Source: Clostridiales bacterium (lineage in GTDB: Bacteria; Bacillota_A; Clostridia; Oscillospirales; Oscillospiraceae). Taken from it: DNA of 17,228 bases. Each line of letters begins with the position of its first letter. Position 1 is the first letter of the stretch. The notes beneath the pieces were generated by a model that was given only the letters and a program-made list of their open reading frames with translations, was not told the origin of the DNA and did not search any database. The position numbers were made by a program, and so were the translations under genes. The stretch is from assembly GCA_019417795.1 (NCBI GenBank), contig DXUR01000025.1:1-17228 (forward strand), in the 5' to 3' direction. Shown here piece after piece: positions 2,062 to 15,801 of the stretch.

Positions 2062-3429
2062 CTATTTTCGGAAGTACGCCGCCTGCCCCCAGGGAATCCT
2101 AACACGGTTATTGGTGAGCAGCCAGAGCACAGGTATGCCGGATGAGGCCTCATATTCCGGGAAATCGCTTTTCCCATCTGTCATGATGACGATTTCTGAA
2201 GGAACATTGTCAGACATATGTTCCCGAACATAATCAAAAATGCACTGGAAACTTGTCCCGCCTCCGCTATATGGCTTCAGTTGCAGCAGGTTTTCCGCAC
2301 TGGTAATGGGAACTACCCGTCGGACTTCCGAATCAAAGAAACCGATGGAGCCGCTAAGCATCCCGCCGAATTGCTCAATAGCTGCGCAGATCTCGGCGGC
2401 GGCCATGGCCACTTCCTGATCTTTCAAAGAGGCAGAGATATCAACCATGAACAAAACATTGAGCCTGGGCGTTTCAGACTCGTTGTAATCCGGCAGAAAG
2501 AAGTCCAGGTCCTGCAGCCTGCGATCGGGAGGGGTAAAGCTGTAGTCCCTTGTTTCGTCCATGATAAAGTGGTTCAAGAGAGATTGCCAATCGTGAGTCG
2601 TGATTTTCGATCGGTGAAGGACGCGCTCACAAAGGGTGCTACTGTCATAGTTTTCTGCATCGCGGTCCTTTGAACCCCGGATTTCCCGAATTGCCTCTTT
2701 GAGATTCGCACTCGGGCGTGTTGTATACTCGAAGATGAGATCGTCCAGTTCGTCATCATCATCTGCTTCCGGGCGATATACTTCAGGCATCTCCTGCTTG
2801 CGGAACCCTTTGCACACTCGCTCGATGATTCCTCGAATGCGCTCAGATGGAATTAGGTCATCGGGATCAGGGTCATCCGGGCTGAGAATCAGGACCCCAT
2901 CCTCGGTGCGGGCGTTTGGCCTATCCCACCACTCATCTGAATCCAGCAGGAGATTGCGGCGCTGCGCATCACTCAACGTGGAAGGATCCAAAGGTGTCAT
3001 CTGAAATGCCTCGTAAGGCGTCAACTCGCAGCCTTCAACTTTGGGATAAAAAGTCTCATGGTGGATCTCGCCGATTCCAGGGAGCTTGTCATCCGTGAAG
3101 TCATACCGGATAAGCGAGGAGTTGACAACGATATTGCAGGCAAAGTGAAAACGGTCACCTTTATAAAACTGCGGGCGTGAGAGATGCCCTAACCGGATAT
3201 GCATGAGCTGGTGGCAGAGCGCAAAATCCAAGCTGTTGTCGTCGAGCTTTTCCAACCAGCTCGCGTCAAAGTAGATGCAACTCCCGTTTGTTGACATCCG
3301 GCGCACATCCACATTGGTGACAAACAACATCTCTACCAGCGGCGCCGCCAACTCCGGCTCCCGTGTCAGAAGCCGATACCGGGCCTCCTGGAGTTTTCTT
3401 TTGAGCTTATTGATTCGCTTATCAGTCAT
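2062..3429 (-). CDS. VWA-like protein with degenerate metallopeptidase domain (DUF2201 type)
   Basis: 455 residues starting at ATG 3429, which overlaps the MoxR stop codon by four bases (ATGA), so the two are translationally coupled. The N-terminal domain (about 1-140) matches the putative metallopeptidase domain of DUF2201 proteins, but the zinc motif at 73-77 reads HQLMH instead of HExxH: the general-base Glu is Gln, so peptidase activity is doubtful. An acidic linker (EADDDDELDDL, about 221-231) follows. The C-terminal VWA domain starts near 323 and has an intact metal-ion-dependent adhesion site: D330, S332 and S334 (DISAS), T392 (GGGTSF) and D418 (MTDGKSD). MoxR ATPases and VWA proteins act together as chaperone or remodelling pairs. 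Here the client is probably an RNA-repair component or RNA-protein complex, an inference from the divergent TROVE-rtcB genes. Confidence 0.85.
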   Translation of the reverse strand: MTDKRINKLKRKLQEARYRLLTREPELAAPLVEMLFVTNVDVRRMSTNGSCIYFDASWLEKLDDNSLDFALCHQLMHIRLGHLSRPQFYKGDRFHFACNIVVNSSLIRYDFTDDKLPGIGEIHHETFYPKVEGCELTPYEAFQMTPLDPSTLSDAQRRNLLLDSDEWWDRPNARTEDGVLILSPDDPDPDDLIPSERIRGIIERVCKGFRKQEMPEVYRPEADDDDELDDLIFEYTTRPSANLKEAIREIRGSKDRDAENYDSSTLCERVLHRSKITTHDWQSLLNHFIMDETRDYSFTPPDRRLQDLDFFLPDYNESETPRLNVLFMVDISASLKDQEVAMAAAEICAAIEQFGGMLSGSIGFFDSEVRRVVPITSAENLLQLKPYSGGGTSFQCIFDYVREHMSDNVPSEIVIMTDGKSDFPEYEASSGIPVLWLLTNNRVRIPWGQAAYFRK

Positions 3430-4514
3430 TTCATGCCTGCCTTAACCGCATCCAGGTATATTGCGTTTTCTGCAAGAATGGGGCGGAGCTTAGGGATGAG
3501 CTGATAATCATGGAGGAGGTTGGTGCGGAAAGTCCAAGGAAGATCACAAGCGAATACTATAGAGTTGTTGATGAGCTCCTTTTCCGGATGCTGATGCGCA
3601 TAGGCGACCATCTCAGCCCTAAGGGCCTCCTGCATTTCCGGAGACTTCTCAACAGCAGTCTTTTTCCCGGCGAAGATGTCTTCGATTGAAGGCAGGTTTG
3701 AAAACAGAGTGCACCATTTCGCAAAATTGTAAGTTACGCTTGCCCCGATACAGCCGGATATCAAAGGCTGAATTGCGTCCATGTTTTCTGAGATATTGGT
3801 AAGGATGTTGCTGACCATCTCCCAGGAACGAGGTGTTGGAAAAGCCAAGGTGGATTCAGGGCTATCGGAGCGCATGAGAGCGGTTGGGTTATACTCCAGA
3901 AAACTGGTGACAAAGCGGTGAATGCCTGATTTGACAGCCCAGTCGTGCCAGGAGTCAGGATCGCCCTTCACAGTAATGTGCAAGAGACGGTTGGCTAATG
4001 CGCGTGGCATATTATAGGCAACGGATTTATCGGTAACGCGGTTGCCAGCGGCAATGACGATACAGTTCTCCGGCAGCTTATGCTCACCAATAACGCGATC
4101 CAGCGTGATCTGATAGGCAGCGGCCTGCACCGACTGCGGTGCGGCGGTGATCTCGTCTAGGAAGAGGATGTTGATCACATCTTCACTTTCATCCATCTGG
4201 AAAATCTGAGGCTTCAGCCACACCGATAGGGTTTTATCCGCGTTGGTCGTCGGGATGCCTCTGAGATCTACCGGGTTGAATAGCAACAGGCGTACATCTG
4301 TGATGGAAACCTTTTTTCCGGTCTTAGCCTGGATGTTGCCCGCTATCTCACGAACACCCTGGGATTTGCCGATACCCGGAGGCCCCCACAGCATCACGGA
4401 GGGAAAAGATTTTAGTGGGGTACCGTTTTTGATGAGCTTGATATAGGCCCGGGACAATAGGCTCACAATCTGATTCACATTCAGTAAGGTCAAATTGGTT
4501 TCGTTATCAGTCAT
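3426..4514 (-). CDS. MoxR-type AAA+ ATPase
   Basis: 362 residues. Walker A is GPPGIGKS at 44-51, Walker B is ILFLDE at about 116-121, sensor 1 is the Asn of AAGNR near 158, and a following MPRALANRL supplies the Arg typical of MoxR proteins. The length and motif order match the MoxR branch of AAA+ ATPases, which form hexameric rings and work with VWA partners to remodel or load cofactors on other proteins. The VWA gene begins inside its stop codon. The ATG at 4514 is preceded by AGAAAGG at a rather long distance of about eleven bases, while the WYL gene upstream ends at 4566, leaving a 51-base gap with no promoter that I can see. No key residue is missing. The target of the ATPase cannot be read from sequence. 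Confidence 0.9.
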   Translation of the reverse strand: MTDNETNLTLLNVNQIVSLLSRAYIKLIKNGTPLKSFPSVMLWGPPGIGKSQGVREIAGNIQAKTGKKVSITDVRLLLFNPVDLRGIPTTNADKTLSVWLKPQIFQMDESEDVINILFLDEITAAPQSVQAAAYQITLDRVIGEHKLPENCIVIAAGNRVTDKSVAYNMPRALANRLLHITVKGDPDSWHDWAVKSGIHRFVTSFLEYNPTALMRSDSPESTLAFPTPRSWEMVSNILTNISENMDAIQPLISGCIGASVTYNFAKWCTLFSNLPSIEDIFAGKKTAVEKSPEMQEALRAEMVAYAHQHPEKELINNSIVFACDLPWTFRTNLLHDYQLIPKLRPILAENAIYLDAVKAGMK

Positions 4515-4565: not shown

Positions 4566-5477
4566 TTATTGGCAGAAGCGCTGTTTCTGAACGGCAATCC
4601 GCTTTCTCATCAGCGTGACAAAAGCGCTTGGTTCAATGACTTCCAGCACCGGGCCGAAGGACAGCACCCTAATAAGCAGCTCGGTCTCATCGTCCTTGTC
4701 GTAACGGAGCCTGATCTGATAGAGCCGATCGGCCAACTTCTGAGTCTCTTTTTCAAAATGGGAGAAGTGTAGCAGCACACGTTCCAGCCCGTTGCGCTCG
4801 TCATGAAGCAGCATTACAAGCTCTTCGGAATTTTCCTGAGGCAGCGTGATGGATTTGGGATCATAGGCATCCAGCAACTCGCATGAACGCACACGAGCCA
4901 TATTGATCGTGTTGAGCCGTCGCTTGCCGGTTGCCAGTAACCTGAACTTATCGTCCTTGGCGGAATATTCCAGGCGGTAAGGTATACACTCGATCGAATG
5001 GCGGGCGCCGGTATGGCCACGGAACCGGATACGCAGTTTTCTCTTCTTTCGAATTGCCTTCAGTGCTGTTTGGAAGCAAGCTATGTAGGCGGGATCCCCA
5101 TACGGATCTCCGTCCGCGTACTGGTCAAAGAGAATGAAGGTGTCCTGAGCATACAGCGGATCAACATCTTCCAGCCCGGTCGTGTCCGGATCAAACAGAG
5201 CGATTCTGGGATCAGACAGCAGCGCTTTGAGCCATCTCTTTTGGAGCATTGTCAAAGGCATGGTTGGCTTGTGGTGAAGTATGGAATGATACTCCTGATC
5301 GAGTAAAGGCCAGGTTCCGGATTTCAGCGCTGCCGGAATTGCAAGCGCGCTTTCCGCGAAAGCCTTTTCCCGGACAAGCTCGGTCATTCTTCGATCTGTC
5401 AACTTCCCATCGGATGCTTCGGAAAGGACAGCTGCGACGACATTGAAATAGCTTCCGTAGATCTCACTGAATAACAT
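4566..5477 (-). CDS. WYL-domain regulator (second of a pair)
   Basis: I place the start at ATG 5477, because GGAGGT lies seven bases upstream; the frame is open further upstream but overlaps the preceding gene more. The 303-residue product has an N-terminal helical region (1-100) that may be a winged helix, then a WYL fold at about 135-205: AIRKKRKLRIRFRG, IECIPYRLEYS, KFRLLATGKRRLNT and ARVRSCELL follow the expected strand order. WYL domains are ligand-sensing modules, usually of transcription factors, thought to bind nucleotides or nucleic acid. The gene overlaps the end of the first WYL gene by 14 bases, so the pair is co-translated and may form a heteromeric regulator. It is the second gene of the minus-strand operon. 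Confidence 0.85.
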   Translation of the reverse strand: MLFSEIYGSYFNVVAAVLSEASDGKLTDRRMTELVREKAFAESALAIPAALKSGTWPLLDQEYHSILHHKPTMPLTMLQKRWLKALLSDPRIALFDPDTTGLEDVDPLYAQDTFILFDQYADGDPYGDPAYIACFQTALKAIRKKRKLRIRFRGHTGARHSIECIPYRLEYSAKDDKFRLLATGKRRLNTINMARVRSCELLDAYDPKSITLPQENSEELVMLLHDERNGLERVLLHFSHFEKETQKLADRLYQIRLRYDKDDETELLIRVLSFGPVLEVIEPSAFVTLMRKRIAVQKQRFCQ

Positions 5478-6711
5478 CGTTGCCACCTCCGTACAGAGCG
5501 TCCATCCGAGCCAAATCTTCTTGGAACATATCCAAAACATACTGGCTGGAGCATTTGAGATCTACAATGCGGCCGATGAAGGTGCGCAGCCAGGGCAGTA
5601 TCTCTGAGGCATCATAGACATCGGCTGAAAACCTGCAAGTCTGTGAGTCCAATAGTTCGACTGTACCATGGCGCTTCTCGCGCTCCAGGCGGTGCAGCAC
5701 GAATTCCTCGCCCGGGTCAAAATGGACCGTCATTTCAATATGATCCAAATTATGGTCGGGACCCGTTGAGACACCCCAAAGGTGCTGGTCAAACTTCTCC
5801 TGGTACCCTAAGTACTTGCTGTAGTGTTTCTCGACATTCCCAATCGTGACCTTTTTGATGGCATCCAACCGGAAGAAAGATAAGTGCCGCCCCCGGTAAT
5901 GGTAGCCGAGCAGATACTGGCGCCCGGACTGGGTGCTGACATAGATCTTCAGAGGACAAACCGTCCTTTGATAGTCGCGGCCACTCCGCAGGCTCCTGAC
6001 GGTCAGTTCCGCAGCTCTTTTTTCATCGATTGCCGCCAACAGATCACAGAGGACATCACTGTCCAGGGCGTGGAGCATGTAGTGATGTTTGAATCGGAAG
6101 CTATCAGAAGGTTTTTCCAATTTATCGATCAAGAAGGAGCCAATCACCCCGAGTGGATCCTCCTCGGAGAAAAAGGATAGGGCGTCTGCCCAGGTATTCA
6201 AATCAACGGTGTTATCATCCGTTCTCCGGTAGAGTACCTCACGACCGCATTTCTCGGAGCTTAGCAGACCAAGCGCCTCATATTCCTTGAGCTTTTTCCG
6301 CACGGTGGATTCGTCTGGAGAGAAGGCGCCGCTGAAATGAGAGAGATAGTCATCATTGATGCAATCGACAATCTCTCTGGAAGAAAGCGCGCTGCCATCG
6401 GCCAGCAGGTCCATCACATAGAAGTGGAGGGTGATGTCCTTATCGGTAAAGCTTTTGGCTTTAAAAGCCTTGTGGAGCGGGTTGTGTGGGATCCGCCTGC
6501 TGTCAACCGAGAGGAATACATTCTTGCCGGATGTGTCCTGATGGAAGGACATAAAGTCGCCGATCCAACTCTCAATTCTTCGCCGCTCATTATCGTAGCT
6601 GCGGGCACTCTTGATGCTGTACTCTTCCCGACTCTTAAACCCATAGACATAGAATTCGCGCATGTAGCTCCGGATACGCTCAAAACTCTTGACCAACTCA
6701 CTATATGCCAC
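5464..6711 (-). CDS. WYL-domain transcriptional regulator with winged helix (first of a pair)
   Basis: 415 residues from GTG 6711. That start is preferred to the GTG at 6720 because AGGAGG lies eight bases upstream of 6711 and directly abuts 6720. Residues about 92-160 contain a winged helix-turn-helix (LHFYVMDLLADGSALSSREI, then DESTVRKKLKEYEALGLL). The WYL domain is at about 230-295 (VCPLKIYVSTQSGRQYLLGY, then SFFRLDAIKKV), with a C-terminal WCX-type extension at about 325-405. WYL proteins sense ligands and regulate stress and defence genes; in RNA-repair neighbourhoods they are natural candidates for sensing RNA fragments or cyclic-phosphate ends. It is the first gene of the minus operon, divergent from the RNA array and TROVE gene. 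Its promoter sits inside a perfect inverted repeat, consistent with autoregulation. Confidence 0.88.
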   Translation of the reverse strand: MAYSELVKSFERIRSYMREFYVYGFKSREEYSIKSARSYDNERRRIESWIGDFMSFHQDTSGKNVFLSVDSRRIPHNPLHKAFKAKSFTDKDITLHFYVMDLLADGSALSSREIVDCINDDYLSHFSGAFSPDESTVRKKLKEYEALGLLSSEKCGREVLYRRTDDNTVDLNTWADALSFFSEEDPLGVIGSFLIDKLEKPSDSFRFKHHYMLHALDSDVLCDLLAAIDEKRAAELTVRSLRSGRDYQRTVCPLKIYVSTQSGRQYLLGYHYRGRHLSFFRLDAIKKVTIGNVEKHYSKYLGYQEKFDQHLWGVSTGPDHNLDHIEMTVHFDPGEEFVLHRLEREKRHGTVELLDSQTCRFSADVYDASEILPWLRTFIGRIVDLKCSSQYVLDMFQEDLARMDALYGGGNDVIQ

Positions 6712-6717
6712 GAAATC

Positions 6718-6758
6718 CACCTCCTGCAGTTTATGGCCTCATTTTACCACAGGAGGTG
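6718..6758. promoter_or_regulatory. Inverted repeat spanning the minus-operon promoter (candidate operator)
   Basis: CACCTCCTG at 6718-6726 and CAGGAGGTG at 6750-6758 are perfect inverted copies centred on 6738. An extended -10 element for the minus strand (TGGTAAAAT, plus-strand positions 6741-6749) lies between them, and the left arm contains the WYL ribosome binding site. The right arm would be upstream of the transcript, so the repeat is better explained as a DNA site than as an mRNA hairpin. A WYL regulator could bind it. Confidence 0.45.
6741..6749 (-). promoter_or_regulatory. Extended -10 promoter of the WYL-WYL-MoxR-VWA operon
   Basis: The minus strand reads TGGTAAAAT, an extended -10 element. 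The -35 region is poor (TTTCAT), as is common with extended -10 promoters. The start would be near 6734, about 22 bases before GTG 6711, leaving just enough leader for AGGAGG. Confidence 0.5.
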
Positions 6759-6833: not shown

Positions 6834-6861
6834 AGTTGCTCTTGAGTTCGCAACTTTTTTT
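6834..6861 (+). terminator. Intrinsic terminator upstream of the RNA array
   Basis: AGTTGC at 6834-6839 pairs with GCAACT at 6850-6855 around a 10-base loop, and seven T residues run from 6855 to 6861. It could insulate the array from upstream transcription or act as an attenuator. Nothing else is supported in the 6862-6902 stretch; I saw no convincing -35/-10 pair there for the array. Confidence 0.6.
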
Positions 6862-6902
6862 CCGTGTTTTTCCTCTGAACAGGCAGTATTCTTAAATCAC
6901 GA

Positions 6903-6996
6903 AAAGCGCATACAGCAAACCCATGCATATGACTTTTAATCATAGACGCTGTTCTGGTCTGGCGTAGTAACCTCTCCGGAATAAAGAATGCGCTTT
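6903..6996 (+). ncRNA. tRNA-like RNA element 1 (anticodon loop CTTTTAA, UUU)
   Basis: Closing helix AAAGCGCAT (6903-6911) with ATGCGCTTT (6988-6996), nine perfect pairs. ACAGCAA follows at 6912-6918. A perfect five-pair anticodon stem, TATGA (6928-6932) with TCATA (6940-6944), encloses the seven-base loop CTTTTAA, which is the classic tRNA-Lys loop with anticodon UUU and U33. A hairpin ACGC/GCGT (6946-6949 and 6962-6965) occupies the T-arm position, but its loop is not T-loop-like, and no proper D arm is visible. It lacks a seven-pair acceptor stem and an encoded CCA, so it is not an ordinary tRNA gene. GT follows the helix, as in four other elements of the array. Confidence 0.6.
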
Positions 6997-7000
6997 GTAA

Positions 7001-7111
7001 AAGACGCTAACAGCATTATCTATTAACATTAGCTCAACGAAGGAGCACCTGCTTTCGGGGCAGGCCGACAAAGGGTGAGACCCCCTTTATGATGATAAAG
7101 GACAGCGTCTT
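7001..7111 (+). ncRNA. tRNA-like RNA element 2 (anticodon loop TTTCGGG, UCG)
   Basis: Closing helix AAGACGCT (7001-7008) with AGCGTCTT (7104-7111). The box reads ACAGCAT (7010-7016). Three tRNA-like arms occur in the right order: D-like stem GCTC/GAGC (7032-7035, 7043-7046), one linker base, anticodon stem CCTGC/GCAGG (7048-7052, 7060-7064) around TTTCGGG with anticodon UCG at 7055-7057, then a T-like stem AAAGGG/CCCTTT (7070-7075, 7083-7088). The T-like loop TGAGACC does not match the usual TTCRANY and the D loop lacks GG. Inner pairs TTATC/GATAA partly replace an acceptor stem. It begins only four bases after element 1, so the two are probably cut from one transcript. Confidence 0.65.
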
Positions 7112-7114
7112 GTC

Positions 7115-7200
7115 GAATACATCTCCGGTAGTTCAGATGGTAGAACGGGAGACCCCAATCTCTGTGTCGTGGGTTCGAGCCCCACCCGGATGATGTATTC
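7115..7200 (+). ncRNA. tRNA-like RNA element 3 (extended acceptor helix, six-base anticodon loop)
   Basis: This is the most tRNA-like core: D arm GTTC/GAAC with a GG-containing loop (7131-7146), T arm GTGGG/CCCAC with canonical loop TTCGAGC (7169-7185), and T-A at positions 8-9. The acceptor is TCCGG/CCGGA, then a bulged T (7191), then nine more pairs GAATACATC/GATGTATTC (7115-7123, 7192-7200), about 14 pairs in place of seven. The anticodon stem GGAGA/TCTCT (7148-7152, 7159-7163) closes on a six-base loop CCCCAA without U33, so no normal anticodon can be assigned. It is the only member without the ACAGCA box. No CCA is encoded. Variable and T-arm bases resemble tRNA-His or tRNA-Met, suggesting descent from a real tRNA. 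Confidence 0.65.
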
Positions 7201-7214
7201 ACTCCTTAGACAAA

Positions 7215-7311
7215 AAGGCACCAACAGCAAAGATTGAATAGCTAAGATGGTTATAGCAGGCGGTTCATACCCGTCGTTCGTGGGTTCGATTCCCACTTCA
7301 CATGGTGCCTT
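7215..7311 (+). ncRNA. tRNA-like RNA element 4 (anticodon loop TTCATAC, CAU)
   Basis: Closing helix AAGGCACCA (7215-7223) with TGGTGCCTT (7303-7311), nine perfect pairs, then ACAGCAA (7224-7230). The core has all three arms: D stem GCTA/TAGC (7241-7244, 7254-7257) with GG in the loop, anticodon stem GGCGG/CCGTC (7259-7263, 7271-7275) around TTCATAC with anticodon CAU at 7266-7268 and U33, and T arm GTGGG/CCCAC (7280-7284, 7292-7296) with canonical loop TTCGATT. Only four inner acceptor pairs remain (TGAA/TTCA), separated from the closing helix by an 11-base versus 2-base internal loop that holds the ACAGCAA box. A normal tRNA-Met would have a continuous seven-pair acceptor, so this is a mimic. 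A gene finder may call it tRNA-Met or a tRNA pseudogene. Confidence 0.7.
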
Positions 7312-7323
7312 GTTTTATCAATA

Positions 7324-7426
7324 AAGATGCCCACAGCAACACCCAACGGTCTTGAATCCGATCCGATGCAGAGGTCAGGGCGCCGGTCAACTGGCGGCTT
7401 AGGACTTGCGATATGTCAGGCATCTT
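7324..7426 (+). ncRNA. tRNA-like RNA element 5 (divergent core)
   Basis: Closing helix AAGATGCC (7324-7331) with GGCATCTT (7419-7426), eight perfect pairs, followed by ACAGCAA (7333-7339), and GT after the 3' arm, so the frame matches its neighbours. The core is the least tRNA-like. A strong hairpin CGCCG/TGGCG (7381-7385, 7392-7396) encloses the six-base loop GTCAAC. A second possible hairpin, CGG/CCG (7347-7349, 7358-7360), has the loop TCTTGAAT. A weak GAC/GTC hairpin (7403-7405, 7415-7417) occupies the T-arm place. It may have a different fold, or be a class II (long variable arm) mimic that I could not resolve by eye. Confidence 0.5.
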
Positions 7427-7430
7427 GTGA

Positions 7431-7507
7431 AAGGCACCAACAGCAATTCTTGGTAACAACTACGACTAGAAATCGTACTTTCGGGTTCAAATCCCTGATG
7501 GTGCCTT
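7431..7507 (+). ncRNA. tRNA-like RNA element 6 (anticodon loop CTAGAAA, AGA)
   Basis: Closing helix AAGGCACCA (7431-7439) with TGGTGCCTT (7499-7507), then ACAGCAA (7440-7446). The D region is reduced to a TTG/CAA mini-hairpin with loop GTAA (7451-7459). A perfect anticodon stem TACGA/TCGTA (7461-7465, 7473-7477) encloses CTAGAAA, with anticodon AGA at 7468-7470 and U33. The T arm GGG/CCC carries the canonical loop TTCAAAT (7486-7492). At 77 nt it is the shortest element. It ends 33 bases before the TROVE start codon, so it shares a transcript with that gene or is cut from its leader. Confidence 0.68.
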
Positions 7508-7540: not shown

Positions 7541-9001
7541 ATGCTGAAGTTTCTAAAGAAAGAAGCAAATATGACCCATACGGAAAATGGCGCAGTTACA
7601 TATCGTTCCACCCAGTCTGAATGTCTGGATCTGTTCGCTACGATCGGCGCCCTGCGCAGAGAGCGTGACGAGGAGATCACGAATCGCTTCCTCCGCGCCT
7701 ATGCCGAAGACGCTGATCTGGCCATGAAGACCCTGTTCTTTGCGAGAGATATTCGTGGCGGTATCGGCGAGCGCCGTGTCTTCCGTACCATTCTGAAGTG
7801 GCTGGCCGACAACGAGCCGCAATCCCTGGAGAAGAACATCCAGTACATTGCAGAGTATGGACGCTACGATGACCTGCTGGTCCTGATGGGCACCACATGC
7901 GAAGGCAAGGTGCTGCATCTGATCAAAAAGCAGCTGGCAGCCGACTGTGCCGCTCTGGAGGCTGGCGAGTCCGTGTCCCTGCTGGCCAAGTGGCTCCCCT
8001 CCGTCAATGCCTCCAACGAAGATGTGATCCGGCAGGCGAAGCGAATTGCCCGTGCGATGGGTATGAACGACGCCCAGTACCGCAAAACGCTGAGCGCCCT
8101 GCGCACCAAGATCAGCATCATCGAGAACAACCTGCGCGAAAAAGACTACACCTTCGATTACTCCAAGCAGCCCTCCAAGGCCATGTTCAAGTATCGTAAG
8201 GCCTTCATGCGAAATGATGGAGACCGCTATGATGAATTCATGAGCCGTGTCGCCGAGGGTACGGAGCAGCTCCACACTGGCACCCTGACGCCCTATGAGA
8301 TGATCAAGCCCTTCTTCGGTCGCGGCGATATCTCCGATCAGGAGCGCAAGGCCATTGACGCAACATGGAAGACACAGGAGGATTTCACTGGCGGTGAGAA
8401 CGCTCTGGTCGTCATTGATGGCTCCGGCTCCATGTACGGTGGTGCTGATCCCATCCCCGCTACTGTGGCGCTGTCTCTTGGTATCTACTATGCCGAGCTC
8501 AACACCGGCGCATTCCAAAACCACTTCATCACATTCTCTGAGAATCCCAAGCTGGTGGAGATTAAGGGCAAGGATATCTACGAAAAGGTGCGGTACTGTC
8601 ACCAGTTCAACGAGGTCGCCAACACCAATATCCAGCGTGTGTTTGAGTTGATCCTCAAGACTGCCGTGAAGAACCGTGTGCCCCAGAAGGATATGCCTGC
8701 CAAGATCTTCATTATCTCCGATATGGAGTTCGACTACTGTACTGAAGATTGCTCCTTGACCAACTTCGAGTATGCGCAGCGGCTCTTCGAGGAACATGGC
8801 TACCAGCTGCCCGAGGTGATGTTCTGGAATGTGGCAAGCCGTAATCAGCAGCAGCCCGTCAAGATCAACGACCAGGGCGTTGCGCTGGTATCCGGCTGTA
8901 ATCCCCGAATCTTCTCCATGCTGAAAGCCGGCATTCTTTCCCCCTATGCCTTCATGATGGATGTTCTGGGTTCCGAGCGTTACGCGGCGATCGTGGCATA
9001 A
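7541..9001 (+). CDS. TROVE/DUF2828-type Ro60-like RNA-binding protein
   Basis: 486 residues from ATG 7541, preceded by CGGAGGAG at 7525-7532; GTG 7532 lies inside that ribosome binding site and is rejected. The N-terminal 270 residues are helical repeats of the TROVE/DUF2828 type (ENGAVTYRSTQSECLDLF, DLAMKTLFFARDIRGGIGER, then YGRYDDLLVL). They are followed by a VWA domain with an intact metal site: D293, S295 and S297 (VIDGSGSM), T362 (ANTNI) and D394 (ISDMEFD). Ro60 proteins form a ring that binds Y RNAs on the outside and the 3' ends of misfolded or damaged RNA in the centre. The gene follows the six-RNA array directly, like the Ro-YrlA pairing known in bacteria. DUF2828 and TROVE are related, and I cannot separate them by eye. 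Confidence 0.85.
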   Translation: MLKFLKKEANMTHTENGAVTYRSTQSECLDLFATIGALRRERDEEITNRFLRAYAEDADLAMKTLFFARDIRGGIGERRVFRTILKWLADNEPQSLEKNIQYIAEYGRYDDLLVLMGTTCEGKVLHLIKKQLAADCAALEAGESVSLLAKWLPSVNASNEDVIRQAKRIARAMGMNDAQYRKTLSALRTKISIIENNLREKDYTFDYSKQPSKAMFKYRKAFMRNDGDRYDEFMSRVAEGTEQLHTGTLTPYEMIKPFFGRGDISDQERKAIDATWKTQEDFTGGENALVVIDGSGSMYGGADPIPATVALSLGIYYAELNTGAFQNHFITFSENPKLVEIKGKDIYEKVRYCHQFNEVANTNIQRVFELILKTAVKNRVPQKDMPAKIFIISDMEFDYCTEDCSLTNFEYAQRLFEEHGYQLPEVMFWNVASRNQQQPVKINDQGVALVSGCNPRIFSMLKAGILSPYAFMMDVLGSERYAAIVA

Positions 9002-9011: not shown

Positions 9012-9052
9012 GCAGGAGGTGATAGCAGGTATGTTATCGCCTCCTGCTTTTT
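9012..9052 (+). terminator. Terminator or attenuator between the TROVE gene and rtcB
   Basis: GCAGGAGGTGATA (9012-9024) pairs with TATCGCCTCCTGC (9035-9047) over 13 positions including one G-U pair, around a 10-base loop, and TTTTT follows. It begins ten bases after the TROVE stop codon, so the RNA array plus TROVE form a unit at least partly separate from rtcB. Confidence 0.75.
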
Positions 9053-9069
9053 CTTTCCCAACAAAAGTG

Positions 9070-9098
9070 TTGCTGTTGGCAGAGATGAACCGTAAAAT
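9070..9098 (+). promoter_or_regulatory. Promoter for rtcB-rlaP-cca
   Basis: TTGCTG (9070-9075) and TAAAAT (9093-9098) are spaced by 17 bases, directly after the terminator at 9012-9052. The start would be near 9105, about 22 bases before the rtcB ATG at 9127. Confidence 0.5.
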
Positions 9099-9126
9099 AA
9101 AGAGTATGAAGGAAAGGGAGATCGTT

Positions 9127-10329
9127 ATGATTACGATTCAAGGTTTATATAATACTGCGGTCTGTTACACCCCCGAGTTGGAGGAGGCAGCCCGCAAGCA
9201 GATCCAGACCGTTTGCGATCAGGCCGAGTTTGCCGGCTGCAAGATCCGGATCATGCCCGATGTCCACGCTGGCAAGGGCTGTACCATCGGTACCACCATG
9301 ACCATCCAGGACAAGATCGTGCCCGGTATGGTTGGCGTCGATATCGGCTGCGGTATGGAGACTGTTGAGCTTCGTGAGCGGGAGGTCGACTTTGAGAAGC
9401 TGGACGCCCTAATCCGCAGGGAGATCCCCTATGGCCGTGAGGTTCGAGACATTCCTCATGCACTGAACGCTGAGATCGATCTGACTCACCTCCGCTGCAC
9501 AGATCAAGTCAATCTCAACCGGGCCATGCGCAGCATCGGCTCTTTGGGTGGCGGCAACCACTTCATTGAGGTGGATCGCGCGGAGGATGGCCGGTTGTTC
9601 CTGGTGGTCCACTCTGGCAGCCGTCATCTGGGCACCGAGGTGGCTGAGCACTACCAGAATGAGGGTCGGCGTGCCCTTTGGGGCGGCGCCCAGTATCAAG
9701 TTCAAGCCGCCATTGACCAGCTGAAGGCCGAGGGCCGGTTCCAGGAAATCCAGAAGACCATCAAGGCGCTCAAGAAGGAGCACGAGCTGAATATCCCCAA
9801 AGATCTGGCCTATGTGGAGGGTAAGCTGTTCGAGGACTATATCCACGATATGAAGCTGACACAGCAGTTCGCCATGCTCAACCGCAAGGCCATGGTGGAT
9901 GTTATCATGACTGGCATGGGCTTCACGGCGGTGGAGACCTTCACCACCATCCACAACTATATTGATACGGACGCCATGATCCTGCGTAAGGGCTCTGTCT
10001 CCGCCAAGGCCGGCGAGAAGCTGCTGATCCCCATCAACATGCGTGACGGTAGCCTGATCTGCAGCGGCAAGGGCAACGAGGATTGGAATTGCTCCGCACC
10101 TCATGGCGCCGGCCGGCTGATGAGCCGCAAGGCGGCCTTCAATGCTCTGTCCATGGAGGAGTTCCAGAAGGAAATGGAGGGTATCTACACCACCTGTGTT
10201 GTGCCCGACACGCTGGACGAGTCTCCCATGGCCTATAAGAGCATGGAGGAGATCGTCGCTCAAATCGGCCCTACTGCGGAGATTATTGAGCGGATCCGTC
10301 CTGTCTATAACTTTAAGGCAGCAGACTGA
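9127..10329 (+). CDS. rtcB: RNA-splicing ligase RtcB
   Basis: 400 residues from ATG 9127, preceded by GGAAAGGGAG at a good distance; the longer open frame upstream lacks homology and runs through the terminator. RtcB joins RNA ends carrying a 2',3'-cyclic or 3' phosphate to a 5' hydroxyl using GTP and Mn2+, which is the kind of break made by many anticodon nucleases. Family motifs are all intact: RIMPDVHAGKG (H47), VDIGCGM (metal ligand C75), GGGNHFIEV (H145), VVHSGSRHLG (metal-region His 162 and 167), TIHNYID (H276), and the guanylylated His in SAPHGAGR (H326). The length suits the shorter bacterial branch. It has its own promoter and is followed 28 bases later by rlaP, so the ligase and end-processing genes share an operon. 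Confidence 0.95.
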   Translation: MITIQGLYNTAVCYTPELEEAARKQIQTVCDQAEFAGCKIRIMPDVHAGKGCTIGTTMTIQDKIVPGMVGVDIGCGMETVELREREVDFEKLDALIRREIPYGREVRDIPHALNAEIDLTHLRCTDQVNLNRAMRSIGSLGGGNHFIEVDRAEDGRLFLVVHSGSRHLGTEVAEHYQNEGRRALWGGAQYQVQAAIDQLKAEGRFQEIQKTIKALKKEHELNIPKDLAYVEGKLFEDYIHDMKLTQQFAMLNRKAMVDVIMTGMGFTAVETFTTIHNYIDTDAMILRKGSVSAKAGEKLLIPINMRDGSLICSGKGNEDWNCSAPHGAGRLMSRKAAFNALSMEEFQKEMEGIYTTCVVPDTLDESPMAYKSMEEIVAQIGPTAEIIERIRPVYNFKAAD

Positions 10330-10357
10330 AATACAATGATGAAAGGCGGTGTTGACC

Positions 10358-11113
10358 GTGGAAGCATTGATCAAAGAAAAGCTTCATGAAATCGAGCAGC
10401 GGGAGAACTGCCGCATCCTTTTGGCCGTGGAGTCCGGTAGCCGTGCTTGGGGCTTTGCTTCTCCGGACAGCGACTATGATGTGCGCTTCATTTATGTGCG
10501 CCCCAGAGAGAGCTATCTCAGGCTCAACCGGGTCCGTGATGTGATCGAGCTGCCCATCAATGGTGTTCTGGACATCAACGGTTGGGATGTGGACAAGACA
10601 CTGAAGTTGCTCCATAAATCCAACCCCACCGTATTTGAGTGGTTTTCCTCTCCCATCGTGTATCAGACCACTGACTTCACTGAGGCGTTTAAGCCCGTCA
10701 TGCGGCGCTACTTCTCGTCCAAGAATGGCCTTTGGCACTATCTGCAGATGGCGGAAGGAAACTATCGAGAATACCTGCGCGGCGACATGGTGAAGGCCAA
10801 GAAGTACTTCTATGTACTGCGGCCAATCCTTGCTTGCCGGTGGATCCTTGAAAAAGGTACTCCGCCCCCAATGCTCTTTTCTGAACTGGCGGCGAGCCAG
10901 CTTCCGGACTACCTGGAGAAAACCGTTGCGAAGCTGCTTGATCTGAAGATGAACTCCCCTGAGGTGAAGATGATCCCGAGAATCGATATCCTCAACGCTT
11001 ACATGGATCGGAGCATTGCAGAGGTGCGTGCTCTGGTGGAGCAGTATCCGAGAGAAATCACGAAGGACTGGGAGGAACTCAATGCGCTGTTCCTCGCCGC
11101 ACTGGAGATGTGA
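10358..11113 (+). CDS. rlaP: RlaP-type nucleotidyltransferase (RNA-repair-associated)
   Basis: 251 residues from GTG 10358, chosen because AAAGGCGG (10342-10349) lies eight bases upstream; GTG 10349 overlaps that site. The polymerase-beta fold signature is clear: GSRAWGF (27-33) followed by SPDSDYDVR with the metal-binding D39 and D41, then a long helical C-terminal part (about 100-251) that could bind nucleic acid. This matches the RlaP family, nucleotidyltransferases repeatedly found beside RNA ligases and thought to modify RNA ends during repair; the exact reaction is not established to my knowledge. It sits between rtcB and the CCA-adding enzyme with short gaps (28 and 4 bases), so the three are co-transcribed. 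Confidence 0.85.
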   Translation: MEALIKEKLHEIEQRENCRILLAVESGSRAWGFASPDSDYDVRFIYVRPRESYLRLNRVRDVIELPINGVLDINGWDVDKTLKLLHKSNPTVFEWFSSPIVYQTTDFTEAFKPVMRRYFSSKNGLWHYLQMAEGNYREYLRGDMVKAKKYFYVLRPILACRWILEKGTPPPMLFSELAASQLPDYLEKTVAKLLDLKMNSPEVKMIPRIDILNAYMDRSIAEVRALVEQYPREITKDWEELNALFLAALEM

Positions 11114-11117
11114 TCTT

Positions 11118-12452
11118 ATGATGAAATTGCCACCACAAGTGAATACAGCATTTGAGATGCTTGAAGCGGCCGGCTATGAGGCGTACCTTGTTGGTGGCGC
11201 AGTGCGTGATTATGTGCGTGACAACAGTCCTGCGAAGGATTGGGACATCACCACCAACGCGCTCCCAGAGCAGGTGGAGGAGATCTTTACAGGCTACCAC
11301 CTGATTGAGACTGGCTTGAAGCATGGGACTGTAACTGTTGTGATCGACCAAGAGCCTCTAGAAATCACGACCTATCGCGTTGACGGGGACTACTCCGACC
11401 ATCGGCATCCGGACTCAGTCAGCTTTACCCGCAGCCTGAAGGACGATCTTGAGCGCCGGGACTTCACCATGAACGCTCTGGCCTACAACCCCAGGACAGG
11501 TGTTGTTGACTTCGTAGGAGGCAAGGCGGACATTGCCGGCGACCTTGTCCGCTGCGTGGGAGATCCAGATCGGAGATTCCAGGAAGATGGCCTGAGAATG
11601 CTCAGAGCCCTTCGCTTCGCCTCCGTGTATGGCATGACGATCGAAGCTGCCACGGCAGCGGCCATCCACAGGAACAAGCACTTGCTCAAAGGTATCGCTG
11701 CGGAGCGCATTCTGGTTGAGCTTACCAAAATGCTCTGCGCTCAGGGCGCGGCAGGTGTTCTGCGGGACTTCGCCGATGTGCTGGCCGTCCCGATCCCGGA
11801 GCTCACACCCATGTTTGGCTTTCCGCAGCATAATCCACATCATGACAAGGATGTCTGGGACCATACCATCGCGGTCATTGAAAGTATCACCCCTGAACCG
11901 GTGCTTCGTTGGGCAGCCCTGCTGCATGACATTGGGAAGCCTTCCTGTTTCTCGCTCGCCGAGGATGGCATTGGCCACTTCTTCGGGCACTCGGATCAGA
12001 GTACTTCAATGGCGGAGAGTATCCTCAGTAGACTTCGCTTCGATAACGCCAGCAAAGAACAAATTGTAAGACTCGTTCGCTATCATGACATGCCCATCAC
12101 GGCCGACAGGAAGCCAATCAAACGGCTTTTGAGCAAGCACGGTGAGGATGCTACCCGGCAACTGATCGAGCTGCACAAGGCAGATACGCTTGGTCAATCG
12201 GCCATCTGCAGACACCGGATCGCAATCTTTGAGGAAGTATCGCAAATGATCAATGAGATCCTGCAGGAAGAGAGCTGCTTCACACTCAAGGACTTGGCAG
12301 TTAATGGACATGATATGATGACATTGGGCTTTCAGGGACCGACCATTGGCCGTGTGCTGCAGGAATGCCTGGATGCAGTCTTGGATGAGCAGATCCCCAA
12401 CGAGCATGAGGCGCTGATGGCCTTTGCAAAGGATAGACAGCTGAAGAGTTAA
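11118..12452 (+). CDS. cca: CCA-adding tRNA nucleotidyltransferase with HD domain
   Basis: 444 residues from ATG 11118 (a second ATG follows at once), four bases after the rlaP stop, with GGAG ten bases upstream inside rlaP. The class II polymerase-beta head is complete: YLVGGAVRDYV, DWDITTNALP (D41 and D43), HGTVTVV, RRDFTMNALAY and EDGLRMLRALRFA. An HD phosphohydrolase domain follows (HTIAVIE, then AALLHDIGKP). The enzyme adds or restores CCA at tRNA 3' ends, and HD domains in this family can trim phosphates. As the last gene of the rtcB-rlaP unit it probably rebuilds damaged tRNA or mimic 3' ends. Whether it is the only CCA-adding enzyme of the host or a second, repair-dedicated copy cannot be told here. 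Confidence 0.92.
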   Translation: MMKLPPQVNTAFEMLEAAGYEAYLVGGAVRDYVRDNSPAKDWDITTNALPEQVEEIFTGYHLIETGLKHGTVTVVIDQEPLEITTYRVDGDYSDHRHPDSVSFTRSLKDDLERRDFTMNALAYNPRTGVVDFVGGKADIAGDLVRCVGDPDRRFQEDGLRMLRALRFASVYGMTIEAATAAAIHRNKHLLKGIAAERILVELTKMLCAQGAAGVLRDFADVLAVPIPELTPMFGFPQHNPHHDKDVWDHTIAVIESITPEPVLRWAALLHDIGKPSCFSLAEDGIGHFFGHSDQSTSMAESILSRLRFDNASKEQIVRLVRYHDMPITADRKPIKRLLSKHGEDATRQLIELHKADTLGQSAICRHRIAIFEEVSQMINEILQEESCFTLKDLAVNGHDMMTLGFQGPTIGRVLQECLDAVLDEQIPNEHEALMAFAKDRQLKS

Positions 12453-12706: not shown

Positions 12707-14398
12707 ATGAAACAGAAAAAGAAATGGGTTATTCCCCTCTGTGTGATAGGAGTCATACTGCTACTTTGTGCGGGTGGCCTTTGGTATATGATAAATCACT
12801 CCATGAGTTTCTCTGTCGGACGCTGCTTAGTAGCGGACAACGGATCGTATATGTTCATCGACGGAAACTCACCCATTATCATGAGCAACCGAAAGGATAA
12901 GGAAGGTCTGTTCTCTGGCTTGGGGACCGGCGATAAGATTTTGATCTTCCACGATGGGATTGCGGATACCTATCCAGGCAGGACCGGTGCGTATTGGTGT
13001 GTGAAATTGGAAGACGGTACGCAGGCCGATATTCCGGAACAGGTCATAGAAGAGCTTACGGAACTCGGATGGACCATTGTAGGAAATGAAGCTGATCCAG
13101 ATTCCGTGACGCCTGAACCGGGAGCATACGCTTTTGAGGCGCAGTACATCCGGACCAATGGCGGACCTGAAGATGGCTATCCTTACCACACCGTGATCAG
13201 TTCCAGAGCGGAATTGGAAGCCTATTACGAGGCATACAAGGACATTTATAGTCTGGAACGAAGAGAGACAGTCTACTCCGACAGCACAATCGGCTTTTTG
13301 GATGCCTGCGACAAATACGATAACGCCTATTTTGAACGGCAGAATCTTGTTCTGATCGTACTGCAGGAAGGCAGCGGATCAATTCGGCATGAGATTACAG
13401 ATGTGCGTCGTCACCGTATTGAGAACGGTGCATTGGATGGGTGGGACATTACGATTGACCGTAAGGTCCCTGAGGCAGGAACAGAGGATATGGCTCAGTG
13501 GCATCTATTCCTTGAAGTGCAGATGGGCGATGTGATCAAGGCCACCGACAAGGTTTGGATCAATGGAAAACAGAGCGAACGCACTCCGGCAATATCCGGT
13601 CTTGTTGGTATCAGTCGTACTCCGTCGATAAGCGCCTATCAGGATCCCTGGGGAGTGAAGCTTACTGCAAAGAATATTACCCCGTCTGGATTGACCATTG
13701 TTTGTACGCAGCAAGATGGAGAACCAACCGGTGAGCTGCAGACCGGCAGTTACTACGGACTCGAAATGCTGCAGGATGGCGAGTGGGTTGCGGTCGAGCT
13801 GCTTCCTATGGAGTATGAGCTTGCCTGGACGTCAGAAGCATGGATGATCCCTAACAATGCGGAAACAGAATGGGAAGTGAATTGGAGCCGCCTGTACGGA
13901 GAGCTTCCCGCAGGTTCCTACCGGATCAGCAAATCGGTTATGGATTTCCGGGGTACCGGTGATTATGACACCAAAACCTATTATGCAGGCTTTGATCTCG
14001 TGGACGCCGCTGACACAAGTAATGTTTCCTACGAACACGGCGGATTTGGCGTCAGTGTGCCGCTTCTTTCTGGTTGGGAATACAAGGTTGAGGAATACAG
14101 TGCCGATGGCATGAGCTATGGCGTCAGTTTCCGACCCGCTGGTGAAGATGGATGGATCGATTTCCAATATTGGCCTACATTCGGCGTCTGTGGCACCGGA
14201 TTGTCAATGAAGGAATTTGGAAATGGTTCCATGGGCACCTACGATGGCGGTGCTATCTGGAACTTTATCAGTTACCCTGCCAGCAAAGGCAACTTTGTGG
14301 CAACGACCCAGGGTGTAAATAGCTGGTGGTCACGCTACGGCGAGACTGCTATGGAAATCATAACGCAGGTAATCTGCACAGACACCATCGTAGACTAA
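12707..14398 (+). CDS. Membrane-anchored extracytoplasmic protein with Ig-like domain, unknown function
   Basis: 563 residues from ATG 12707 with AAGGAGG at the ideal distance. KQKKKW precedes a hydrophobic helix (about 7-29, VIPLCVIGVILLLCAGGLWY), giving an N-terminal anchor with the rest outside the membrane. A small beta-rich segment at about 30-115 (GSYMFIDG, GTGDKILIFHDG) resembles an OB-like or DUF3221-type domain. Residues about 310-435 (WGVKLTAKNITPSGLTIVCT, LPAGSYRISK) look like a bacterial Ig-like domain, and the C-terminal 120 residues are beta-rich and uncharacterised. The serpin gene begins 14 bases after its stop codon, with the AAGGAGG of that gene overlapping the stop, so the two form an operon. 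A shared envelope role is likely, but I cannot name it. Confidence 0.7.
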   Translation: MKQKKKWVIPLCVIGVILLLCAGGLWYMINHSMSFSVGRCLVADNGSYMFIDGNSPIIMSNRKDKEGLFSGLGTGDKILIFHDGIADTYPGRTGAYWCVKLEDGTQADIPEQVIEELTELGWTIVGNEADPDSVTPEPGAYAFEAQYIRTNGGPEDGYPYHTVISSRAELEAYYEAYKDIYSLERRETVYSDSTIGFLDACDKYDNAYFERQNLVLIVLQEGSGSIRHEITDVRRHRIENGALDGWDITIDRKVPEAGTEDMAQWHLFLEVQMGDVIKATDKVWINGKQSERTPAISGLVGISRTPSISAYQDPWGVKLTAKNITPSGLTIVCTQQDGEPTGELQTGSYYGLEMLQDGEWVAVELLPMEYELAWTSEAWMIPNNAETEWEVNWSRLYGELPAGSYRISKSVMDFRGTGDYDTKTYYAGFDLVDAADTSNVSYEHGGFGVSVPLLSGWEYKVEEYSADGMSYGVSFRPAGEDGWIDFQYWPTFGVCGTGLSMKEFGNGSMGTYDGGAIWNFISYPASKGNFVATTQGVNSWWSRYGETAMEIITQVICTDTIVD

Positions 14399-14412
14399 GG
14401 AGGGTACGCAGT

Positions 14413-15801
14413 ATGAAACGAATTGTAGCGCTATGCCTCGCAGCGGCTTGCCTGATTTCTATGGTAGGCTGCGCAGGAGATACCAATATGGACGAAAAGA
14501 AACCAAACAACTCCGCATCGGCCTATGCTCTGGCACTGGCTAGCTATCCGGAGATGGCTCCCTACCCAAACGAGATGGAGTATTTTGATGAAAAGACCGG
14601 TGAGTTTGACAGCGATGGCTTTGATGTGGTCTATGACGCCTGGCAGTCGGACAGAAAGGCCCAACGCAGTCAGCCGGAAGGCTATGCAGACGGTCTGGAA
14701 CCGTTCTTCGCCAGTTCAATCCGAGAGTTTCTCAGCAATTCCAACGGGGAGAACAAGGTATACTCTCCTCTGAGTGTTTACATGGCCCTCGCCATGCTGG
14801 CAGAGGTGACGGACAGTGAAAGCCGCCAGCAGATCCTTGACCTTCTAGGAAGTGAAAGCATTGAGGCTCTGCGCTCCCAGGCGGCCAGTGTTTGGAACGC
14901 CAATTACAGCAATGACGGCGCCGTGACAAGCATTCTGGCAAACTCCCTGTGGCTGAATGAGTCCGTAAATTTCAACCAGTCCACAATGGACAGTCTGGCA
15001 AAGAATTACTATGCGTCCTCCTTCCGTGGTGAGATGGGCAGCGAGGAATTTAATCGGGCCTTGCGGGACTGGATCAATGAGCAGACCGGAGGACTGCTGG
15101 ATGCGCAGGCCGATGGCCTGTCGATGGACCCCGAGACCGTTATGGCTTTGGCCTCTACCATCTACTACCGAGCCAAGTGGCACAGTGAGTTCAATGAGGC
15201 CGGAACGGAAAAGGGCCTGTTCCATCTGTTCAGTGCTGATGGAGAGACCGTGGAGTGCGACTTCATGCACAAGGGCGGCAGCAACACCTATTACTGGGCA
15301 GATCAGTTCGGCGCTGTTGCTCTGAGCCTGGAGGGCAGCGGCAAAATGTGGTTCCTCCTGCCTGATGATGGCGTGGCTATGGATGATCTGCTTGCCGATG
15401 AGCAAACGATGGAGTTCCTAAACAGCAATGGAAACTGGGAGAACAGCAAGCACCTGATCGTGAATATGTCCGTTCCCAAATTTGATGTTGTCTCTGATCT
15501 TGACCTGCGTGATGGCCTGAATGCGCTGGGTATTACCGGTGTATTCGATGCCACGGTGGCCGATTTCAGTCCCATGACTTCGAAAGTTGCAGAGATATTC
15601 CTTTCCAAAGCCGACCATGCAGCCCGCGTTGCCATCGATGAAGAGGGGGTTACCGCAGCGGCATATACCGTCATGATGATGGCTGGTGCTGCGGCGCCAC
15701 CTGAAGAGGAAATGGACTTCGTATTGGATCGACCGTTCTTATTCGCCATTACTGGTGCAGATGGACTTCCACTCTTTGTTGGCGTAGTCAATAGACCGTG
15801 A
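14413..15801 (+). CDS. Serpin family lipoprotein (serine protease inhibitor)
   Basis: 462 residues from ATG 14413, just after AAGGAGG at 14397-14403. A lipoprotein signal (KRIVALCLAAACLISMVGC) ends in a lipobox Cys near residue 20, so the protein should be lipid-anchored outside the cell. The serpin core begins near 95 (VYSPLSVYMALAMLAEVTDS) and includes SLWLNESV, ASTIYYRAKW and the C-terminal RPFLFAITGADGLPLFVGVV. The reactive-centre hinge reads DEEGVTAAAYTVMMMAGAAA: the EEG and small Ala/Thr residues fit an inhibitory serpin that inserts its loop. Counting 17 residues from the hinge Glu places P1 at an Ala, suggesting elastase-like targets, but the register is uncertain. Gut Firmicutes and bifidobacteria use such serpins against host or microbial proteases. 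It is co-transcribed with the upstream envelope protein. Confidence 0.92.
   Translation: MKRIVALCLAAACLISMVGCAGDTNMDEKKPNNSASAYALALASYPEMAPYPNEMEYFDEKTGEFDSDGFDVVYDAWQSDRKAQRSQPEGYADGLEPFFASSIREFLSNSNGENKVYSPLSVYMALAMLAEVTDSESRQQILDLLGSESIEALRSQAASVWNANYSNDGAVTSILANSLWLNESVNFNQSTMDSLAKNYYASSFRGEMGSEEFNRALRDWINEQTGGLLDAQADGLSMDPETVMALASTIYYRAKWHSEFNEAGTEKGLFHLFSADGETVECDFMHKGGSNTYYWADQFGAVALSLEGSGKMWFLLPDDGVAMDDLLADEQTMEFLNSNGNWENSKHLIVNMSVPKFDVVSDLDLRDGLNALGITGVFDATVADFSPMTSKVAEIFLSKADHAARVAIDEEGVTAAAYTVMMMAGAAAPPEEEMDFVLDRPFLFAITGADGLPLFVGVVNRP

Follow-up and report, generated by a model that had tools for sequence, protein, structure and literature searches.

Tandem tRNA-like elements on a common ACAGCA handle accompany genes for Ro60-like proteins in bacteria and phages and may serve as RNA decoys

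Y RNAs that mimic transfer RNA (tRNA) are known to adjoin Ro genes, as Chen et al. reportedly described in 2014, and bacterial Y RNAs were reportedly also the subject of work by Sim and Wolin in 2018. Here we analysed a stretch of 17,228 nucleotides (nt) from a Clostridiales bacterium (assembly GCA_019417795.1, contig DXUR01000025.1), hereafter the window, in which an array of six elements, several of them tRNA-like, spans positions 6903-7507, between WYL-domain regulator genes and a gene for a Ro-like DUF2828 protein. A sequence-only reading, made without database searches, had proposed a tandem array of six tRNA-mimicking RNAs with covarying closing helices at this place; its observation was confirmed, and its interpretation was partly supported.

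Sections of two papers describe Y RNAs beside a gene of the Ro fold, with ends paired as a basal stem, a tRNA-like domain and sometimes an rtcB operon (PMC7790460, PMC8394870); YrlA is reported from several phages in part of a third (PMC7765460), and a section of PMC8394870 likens it to the D, T and acceptor arms of tRNA on a basal stem. The array has in common with YrlA/YrlB, and with the Y RNA and Ro60/Rsr of D. radiodurans, the Ro-fold neighbour, the basal stem of paired ends and the tRNA-like domain. In contrast to YrlA, elements 2 and 4 of the window keep an anticodon-like arm; in the 12 aligned relatives of element 4 the arms follow the order D - anticodon - T, and their handle takes the acceptor side. 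The arrays add to what is described for Y RNAs exact and swapped anticodon loops, up to seven elements, an ACAGCA bulge and copies of 23S rRNA, and their partner is by sequence DUF2828/DUF7788, whereas that of Y RNAs is PF05731 TROVE. Tandem RNA repeats that are alike also precede a nuclease gene in the type III toxin-antitoxin system ToxI; tandem RNAs before a protein gene are common to both, whereas the elements of the array differ from one another and the protein is predicted to have a Ro fold. Jumbo phages, according to a section of PMC7824862, carry tRNAs, RNA ligases, RlaP, CCA enzymes and, in a few of these phages, a TROVE protein, proposed to undo tRNA cleavage; similar genes adjoin this array, whereas its elements have no full acceptor stem and no CCA, and that section holds one clause on a tRNA-like partner of ROT/TROVE and describes no array. 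A literature search, outside which the key Y RNA papers fell, returned no arrays with swapped anticodon heads, an ACAGCA handle or 23S copies, and one joining RNA decoy, RNA repair, anticodon, toxin and tRNA returned nothing. Y RNAs that mimic tRNA near Ro genes were already known; the ACAGCA handle and the exchange of heads look new.

The six elements of the window were delimited as follows:

6903-6996, + strand: element 1, closing helix AAAGCGCAT/ATGCGCTTT, arm pair CGCAT/ATGCG, ACAGCA at 6912-6917
7001-7111, + strand: element 2, closing helix AAGACGCT/AGCGTCTT, arm pair ACGCT/AGCGT, has ACAGCA
7115-7200, + strand: element 3, His-tRNA-like cloverleaf, acceptor stem prolonged by GAATACATC/GATGTATTC, no ACAGCA
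7215-7311, + strand: element 4, closing helix AAGGCACCA/TGGTGCCTT, arm pair GCACCA/TGGTGC, ACAGCA at 7224-7229
7324-7426, + strand: element 5, closing helix AAGATGCC/GGCATCTT, arm pair ATGCC/GGCAT, has ACAGCA
7431-7507, + strand: element 6, closing helix AAGGCACCA/TGGTGCCTT, arm pair GCACCA/TGGTGC, has ACAGCA

Five of them were built on one plan, consisting of AA(A)G with a variable arm, the ACAGCA bulge, a head that differs between elements, the arm's exact complement, and CTTG or CTTTG. The positions and arm pairs given for these five by the sequence-only reading were correct, and the phenomenon proved more general than it had seen; it had overlooked ACAGCA and counted as a sixth mimic the element at 7115-7200, which is of another build, with a 9 base-pair (bp) extension, a 6-nt anticodon loop and a likeness to tRNA-His judged by eye (Rfam tRNA 40.1 bits; ARAGORN call tRNA-???, anticodon undefined). 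Element 1 carried an anticodon-arm hairpin TATGA(CTTTTAA)TCATA (UUU, Lys loop) and no T arm, and element 2 a D-like arm, an anticodon-like arm CCTGC(TTTCGGG)GCAGG (UCG) and a hairpin AAGGG(TGAGACC)CCCTT at the expected place of the T arm. Element 4 was a cloverleaf in direct order, with a D arm, an anticodon arm GGCGG(TTCATAC)CCGTC (CAU, Met loop) and a T arm (Rfam tRNA 44.6 bits; tRNA-likeness z 18.7), and element 6 had an anticodon arm TACGA(CTAGAAA)TCGTA (AGA) and a T arm next to the closing helix. The head of element 5 showed neither an anticodon arm nor a T arm (best tRNA z 2.6) and folded no better than its shuffles (z -1.08), whereas the other five elements folded at z -2.0 to -3.1. Recognisable anticodon and T loops, claimed for the elements at large, were thus present in part of them, the T-loops being clear in three of the six (7115, 7215 and 7431). 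The Rfam tRNA threshold was reached by two of the six and ARAGORN called one. None of the elements combined a 7-bp acceptor stem, an anticodon loop of 7 nt and a 3' end ready for CCA, as a functional tRNA gene would; as had been claimed, the five AAG-arm elements had no 7-bp acceptor stem and none of the elements had a CCA, except that a short remnant of the acceptor persists in some heads (4 bp long in element 4 and those related to it). Among Rfam families only tRNA was matched (in the window at E up to 1, and at the gathering threshold in 11 loci), the presence of a YrlA model in Rfam not having been checked.

The ACAGCA motif was tested in 25 loci, comprising the window and 24 close-relative loci, one of them (L005) a near-copy of the window. 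A closing helix of at least 7 nt, perfect and located 20-260 nt downstream of ACAGCA, was present at 79 of the 110 sites lying up to 3 kb upstream of the Ro-like gene, and at only 10 of the 103 sites elsewhere in the same loci. Permuted control motifs gave 0-7 upstream in 28 of 30 cases, and the two that overlap ACAGCA in register gave 23 and 30. Because circularity was to be avoided, arms were also anchored without use of complementarity, AAG...ACAGCA marking the 5' arm and the first downstream CTT(T)G the 3' arm. In 45 upstream regions, 62 of the 104 anchored pairs matched perfectly over the five variable positions, whereas permuting the partners left 3.7 perfect pairs on average (maximum 12 in 2000 permutations), and 25 different arm sequences occurred; complementarity was kept in homologous loci, which bears out the claim that the closing helix is selected. 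Related loci (e.g. L101-L103) were not thinned in the anchored test or in the head counts given below; L005 was excluded from the element finder, the anchored test and the hairpin and anticodon-loop counts, L084, as a copy of L011, from the anchored test and both of these counts, and 6 of the 93 elements returned by the finder were removed by eye as background. A made up 46% of the last 5 nt before the closing helix of bacterial elements, compared with 28% of the remainder of the heads; with this A-rich 3' side facing ACAGCA, the handle may form an ACAGCAA/AAAA internal loop.

Elements were detected in all 24 close-relative loci, a set drawn from a search that reaches close relatives only: 22 by the finder, L005 as the window copy, and L025 by a further search, its elements all lying 4.4-5 kb upstream of the Ro-like gene. 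Further genome loci (n = 22, L083-L104, L084 repeating L011) carried elements in 21 cases (19 in one scan, L100 in the search that had found those of L025, with motif variants, and L098 by eye with ACAGCT), and the sequence of the remaining one, L097, ends inside the gene. As many as seven elements were counted in a locus. The DUF2828-type gene was carried by 17 of 391 genomes of the class and 7 of 398 of the phylum, with G001 in both. Across the 391 genomes, the pattern AAAGGCRCCNACAGCAA occurred at 5 sites, spread over four genomes that all belong to the 17 carriers, and no site lay more than 1.7 kb from the Ro-like gene; read backwards, the pattern had 1 site, in another genome. In many bacterial loci the array lay before the first gene, and the last element often ended 16-46 nt before the gene start, while an element preceded rtcB in L085 and L093 or stood between rtcB and the Ro gene in L010 and L104.

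Matches to the Ro-like protein by tblastn were found in 673 of 50,697 phage records, some of them duplicates, and in 4 of 72,556 plasmid records. Of 18 phage and plasmid loci, 15 had one or more ACAGCA sites within 2.5 kb that carry a closing helix of 7 nt or longer. Paired sites made up 36 of the 60 ACAGCA sites there, whereas each of 11 control motifs had 0-4 paired among its 10-30 sites; at the same threshold no paired ACAGCA site was seen in L081, L108 and L114. Two sites are doubtful and may be unrelated, one in L118 at 2.0 kb from the gene and one in L120 at 1.5 kb downstream without the usual plan. The arms differed by phage lineage, being AGGAATC/GATTCCT in Listeria phage LP-048, AAACAGAAGTT/AACTTCTGTTT in Fusobacterium phage Fnu1 and TGAGCGC/GCGCTCA in mycobacteriophage UPIE, and the ACAGCA bulge was constant across the lineages, although it was itself the search criterion. 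The elements found in UPIE, Staphylococcus phage PG-2021_46 and coliphage wV8 lay on the 3' side of the Ro gene, those of wV8 among tRNA genes. The arrays expected in related Clostridia near rtcB/TROVE genes were found, yet they are confined neither to Clostridia nor to the surroundings of rtcB; they follow the DUF2828-type Ro protein and occur in phages as well. The order of arms was counted in 32 of the 36 phage and plasmid elements, leaving out four of L107: the T arm was placed early, in the order of a permuted tRNA, in five of the seven phage heads bearing one, which would fit the description of YrlA. Bacterial heads would hardly do so, since in 32 of the 34 that bear a T arm it stands close to the 3' end, where ordinary tRNAs have it, and one of the two early cases is a chance T-loop in a 23S-like head of L010.

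Hairpins and anticodon loops were counted in 123 heads of 20-135 nt. Hairpins with a 5-bp stem and a 7-nt loop occurred 65 times, against 5.2+-2.2 in 50 dinucleotide shuffles, whereas loops of 8-12 nt were at chance and those of 3-6 nt were raised 1.6- to 3.3-fold. Generic YTNNNRN loops did not separate the strands (33 sense, 32 antisense) and were uninformative, and therefore only exact loops were used as evidence, with the tRNAs of the nearest genome as reference (51 loop sequences; stems of at least 4 pairs). Exact host anticodon loops were present in 17 of the 123 heads, against 0.36 in shuffled heads (maximum 3 of 200) and 2 antisense, and represented 11 anticodons (Lys UUU, Met CAU, Cys GCA, Ser CGA, Ser UGA, Arg UCU, Phe GAA, Glu UUC, Tyr GUA, Leu UAA and Asn GUU). 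The tRNA-likeness z exceeded 3 in 29 of 87 heads. The nearest genome also holds a dense extra cluster of tRNA genes (L061, G001 C2:88000-96500), some of them odd and perhaps phage- or element-borne.

Replacement of the anticodon arm on a constant body was seen in 12 orthologues or near relatives of element 4, which were chosen because they could be aligned and were found with the motif-based finder, so that their invariant ACAGCA is partly by choice. The closing stem, ACAGCAA, the D arm and the T arm were kept, and the anticodon arm was replaced, with the loops TTCATAC (window, L003, L007), TTTACAT (L004), CTGAAAA (L008), CTCATAA (L107), TTGAAAA (L021), CTAAAAA (L024) and CTCACAG (L014), read as the anticodons CAU, UAC, GAA, AAA and CAC. 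The anticodon arm had a majority share of 0.63-0.67, against 0.89 for the D and T arms. Cloverleaf pairs were formed in 94.4% of cells, against 37-45% when slid, and all five anticodon-stem pairs changed on both sides; covariation was 0.393 against 0.150+-0.017 in shuffles, a figure that is no probability because the aligned rows are related.

Heads of seven loci copied instead one place of 23S rRNA, positions ~1870-1912 of the nearest genome (CGAAATTCCTTGTCAGGTAAGTTCTGACCCGC), which we take to be E. coli helix 70/71. Scores were z 15.0 in L083, 10.8 in L008, 7.7 in L011, 7.2 in L009 and 4.8 in L024; the head of L023 (z 10.5) was picked by eye before the test, and that of L010 fell at the same site weakly (z 1.3). 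On the antisense strand of rRNA, the control for 87 heads, the best score was z 4.0, in one head. Single matches were seen between a head of L010 and 23S positions 902-944 (z 6.5) and between the head L083_1290 and 16S rRNA (z 4.1). The toxin MazF cuts helix 70, for which the literature search yielded no supporting text. The tRNA mimicry claimed by the sequence-only reading is therefore supported for a part of the heads, since some copy rRNA and most of those tested match nothing known.

The protein downstream of the array did not match PF05731 TROVE by sequence, and Pfam gave only DUF2828 and DUF7788, on the first of which the papers found, judged by their titles, all concern plants. In its AlphaFold model the protein has the Ro60 fold, a helical-repeat ring with a VWA fold, and the top Foldseek/VIA matches were all Ro60, in line with the Ro60-like neighbour that had been claimed. 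Loci of the PF05731 type served as a negative control (six matches, four with a whole Ro-size open reading frame (ORF), L122 and L127 being partial): no array was found within the 0.8-0.9 kb flanks of the four, and these short flanks held stray helices only, without the AAG/CTTG plan. In L124 (760-3167, reverse strand) a PF05731-type Ro gene stands directly before an RlaP-like ORF, recognised by eye, without an ACAGCA array.

The surroundings of the array in the window were annotated as follows:

2062-3429, - strand: DUF2201 metallopeptidase/VWA protein (Pfam)
3426-4514, - strand: MoxR-type AAA ATPase (Pfam)
4566-5540, - strand: WYL-domain regulator gene (Pfam 20.4 bits, just under the cut-off; PADLOC WYL model match)
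5464-6720, - strand: WYL-domain regulator gene (Pfam 34.9 bits; PADLOC WYL model match)
6847-6863, + strand: operator-like box TTCGCAACTTTTTTTCC, shared with other loci, between the WYL genes and the array
6887-6892, + strand: TATTCT, -10-like hexamer ~10 nt before element 1, candidate promoter part read from sequence
7541-9001, + strand: Ro-like protein, DUF2828/DUF7788 (Pfam, phrog_850, AlphaFold and Foldseek)
9019-10329, + strand: RtcB RNA ligase (Pfam PF01139)
10349-11113, + strand: RlaP, RNA-repair nucleotidyltransferase (Pfam PF10127)
11016-12452, + strand: CCA-adding-type tRNA nucleotidyltransferase ORF (Pfam/NCBIfam; best NCBIfam model just under the cut-off)

The WYL, MoxR AAA ATPase and DUF2201 VWA genes diverge from the DUF2828-RtcB-RlaP-CCA cluster, with the six elements between them, and the linkage to rtcB stands as it had been claimed. 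The Ro-like gene could start earlier, at GTG 7532, and the true start of the CCA-adding-type ORF is probably at ~11100. Boxes of the TTCGCAACTTTTTTTCC type, slightly relaxed on the + strand, were present in 21 of 48 loci, lying 3' of the WYL genes and 5' of the elements wherever these are in view, and may be a WYL operator; hexamers similar to TATTCT were found in L003, L004 and L006. The plan of the RtcR-controlled rtcBA operon was not matched, as RtcB was present and RtcA and RtcR were absent by Pfam among the 16 ORFs of the window, which has RlaP, the CCA enzyme and the WYL proteins in their place. The Ro-like protein, RtcB, RlaP and the CCA enzyme were assigned to no family by PADLOC. At L011:3181-4771 and L008:3527-4663, Macro-domain and SIR2-like genes and an AAA/nSTAND3-like ATPase were seen between the WYL genes and the arrays. 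Elsewhere in the window are a specificity subunit of a type I restriction system, truncated at the window edge (2-883, - strand), a bacterial serpin (14326-15801; Pfam Serpin 218.6 bits) with a lipoprotein-like start judged by eye, and a RelB-family antitoxin gene adjoining a Fic/Doc-family gene (16528-17159, Pfam), which is an uncommon pairing.

In the tRNA-like and rRNA-like heads, the parts that vary or are copied are ribotoxin cut sites, whereas the handle and the tRNA body are constant, and for this reason we read the elements as Y-RNA-like decoys or bait, held on the Ro ring, for RNases that cut the copied sites, an explanation to which we give about even weight. From the sequences we infer that the array would be expressed, processed and bound by Ro: transcription may start from the -10-like box just before element 1, the transcript would be cut into single RNAs, and the base stem with its ACAGCA bulge would likely be the docking handle for the adjacent Ro ring, while the heads would capture anticodon nucleases or rRNA-cutting toxins. 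Lacking a full acceptor stem and CCA, the heads should not serve in translation; RtcB, RlaP and the CCA enzyme would reseal and refill cut tRNAs, perhaps also the baits, and the repair cluster may be under WYL control. A section of PMC7790460 (Cell Reports 2020) had already suggested that YrlA, through its tRNA-like part, could be a competitive inhibitor of an anticodon nuclease. Several observations weigh against decoys. The same paper reports for Salmonella that no YrlA fragments were detected where tRNAs were cut. Of the 65 seven-nt loops, 30 are T-loop-like, and T arms are not cut by anticodon nucleases; 58 of 87 heads have a tRNA z of at most 3, most heads matching nothing known. Some loops carry G or A in place of U33 (CGGTCAA, CGCCAAA and CAGCTAA in L020_1925, L007_5322 and L007_5382), three of the 12 relatives of element 4 (L006, L009, L016) have no standard anticodon loop, some phage elements are in a permuted, YrlA-like order that hides the anticodon, and the helix-71 loop is altered in four of the seven 23S copies (L010, L023, L024, L083), their stem being kept. 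Finally, rtcB was not found within ~6 kb on each side in L004, L008, L018, L022, L025 and L026, and the Ro-like protein is therefore the constant partner of the arrays.

Y RNAs of the ordinary bacterial kind that serve, together with the Ro ring, as gates or tethers steering PNPase or other enzymes towards structured RNA, their tRNA-like heads recruiting tRNA-modifying or tRNA-binding factors and their diversity reflecting several client enzymes and not toxins, would agree with the Ro60 fold of the partner, with the basal stem and tRNA-like domain described for YrlA (in a section of PMC8394870), with the permuted T arm of most T-arm-bearing phage heads and with the many heads that resemble neither tRNA nor rRNA; we nevertheless consider this account rather unlikely, as it leaves unexplained the 11 kinds of exact anticodon loop, the swapping of the anticodon arm alone and the copies of 23S helix 70/71. 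The position of the array 5' of the first gene in many bacterial loci, often 16-46 nt before the start, is what a cis-acting leader would have, sensing within the mRNA so that cleavage of a head by a ribotoxin alters expression of the downstream repair genes; such a leader is improbable in view of the elements 3' of the Ro gene in UPIE, PG-2021_46 and wV8 and of those before rtcB or between rtcB and the Ro gene in L085, L093, L010 and L104. It is highly improbable that the heads are references or guides for repair, showing an intact anticodon arm or placing RtcB and RlaP on broken tRNAs of the same kind, since several loci have the array and the Ro gene but no rtcB close by, even if the cluster of the window holds RtcB, RlaP and the CCA enzyme. 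Decayed tRNA genes, which the sequence-only reading had named as a possible refutation, or functionless repeat debris are hardly credible: two of the six elements do reach the Rfam tRNA threshold and element 5 has no supported inner fold, whereas the closing helices covary, ACAGCA is common to the elements and one protein family accompanies them across bacteria and phages. Decay was rejected on the covariation of the closing arms and of the element 4 family. The decoy explanation extends to a broader proposal, which we put forward tentatively and somewhat short of even confidence, that bacteria and phages share a widespread, unrecognised decoy system in which Ro ribonucleoproteins would carry interchangeable replicas of cut sites (11 anticodon loops, 23S helix 70/71) on one handle, with head swapping tracking new nucleases.

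For bacterial Y RNAs that accompany Ro proteins in RNA-repair operons, the arrays suggest a possible role. As many heads vary at ribotoxin cut sites, each such head predicts a specific nuclease that should bind or cut it, and can be tested singly. The ACAGCA handle offers a marker by which hundreds of phages could be searched for these RNAs, which would there act as a counter-defence to anticodon nucleases; it would also provide a standard scaffold for displaying RNA decoys.

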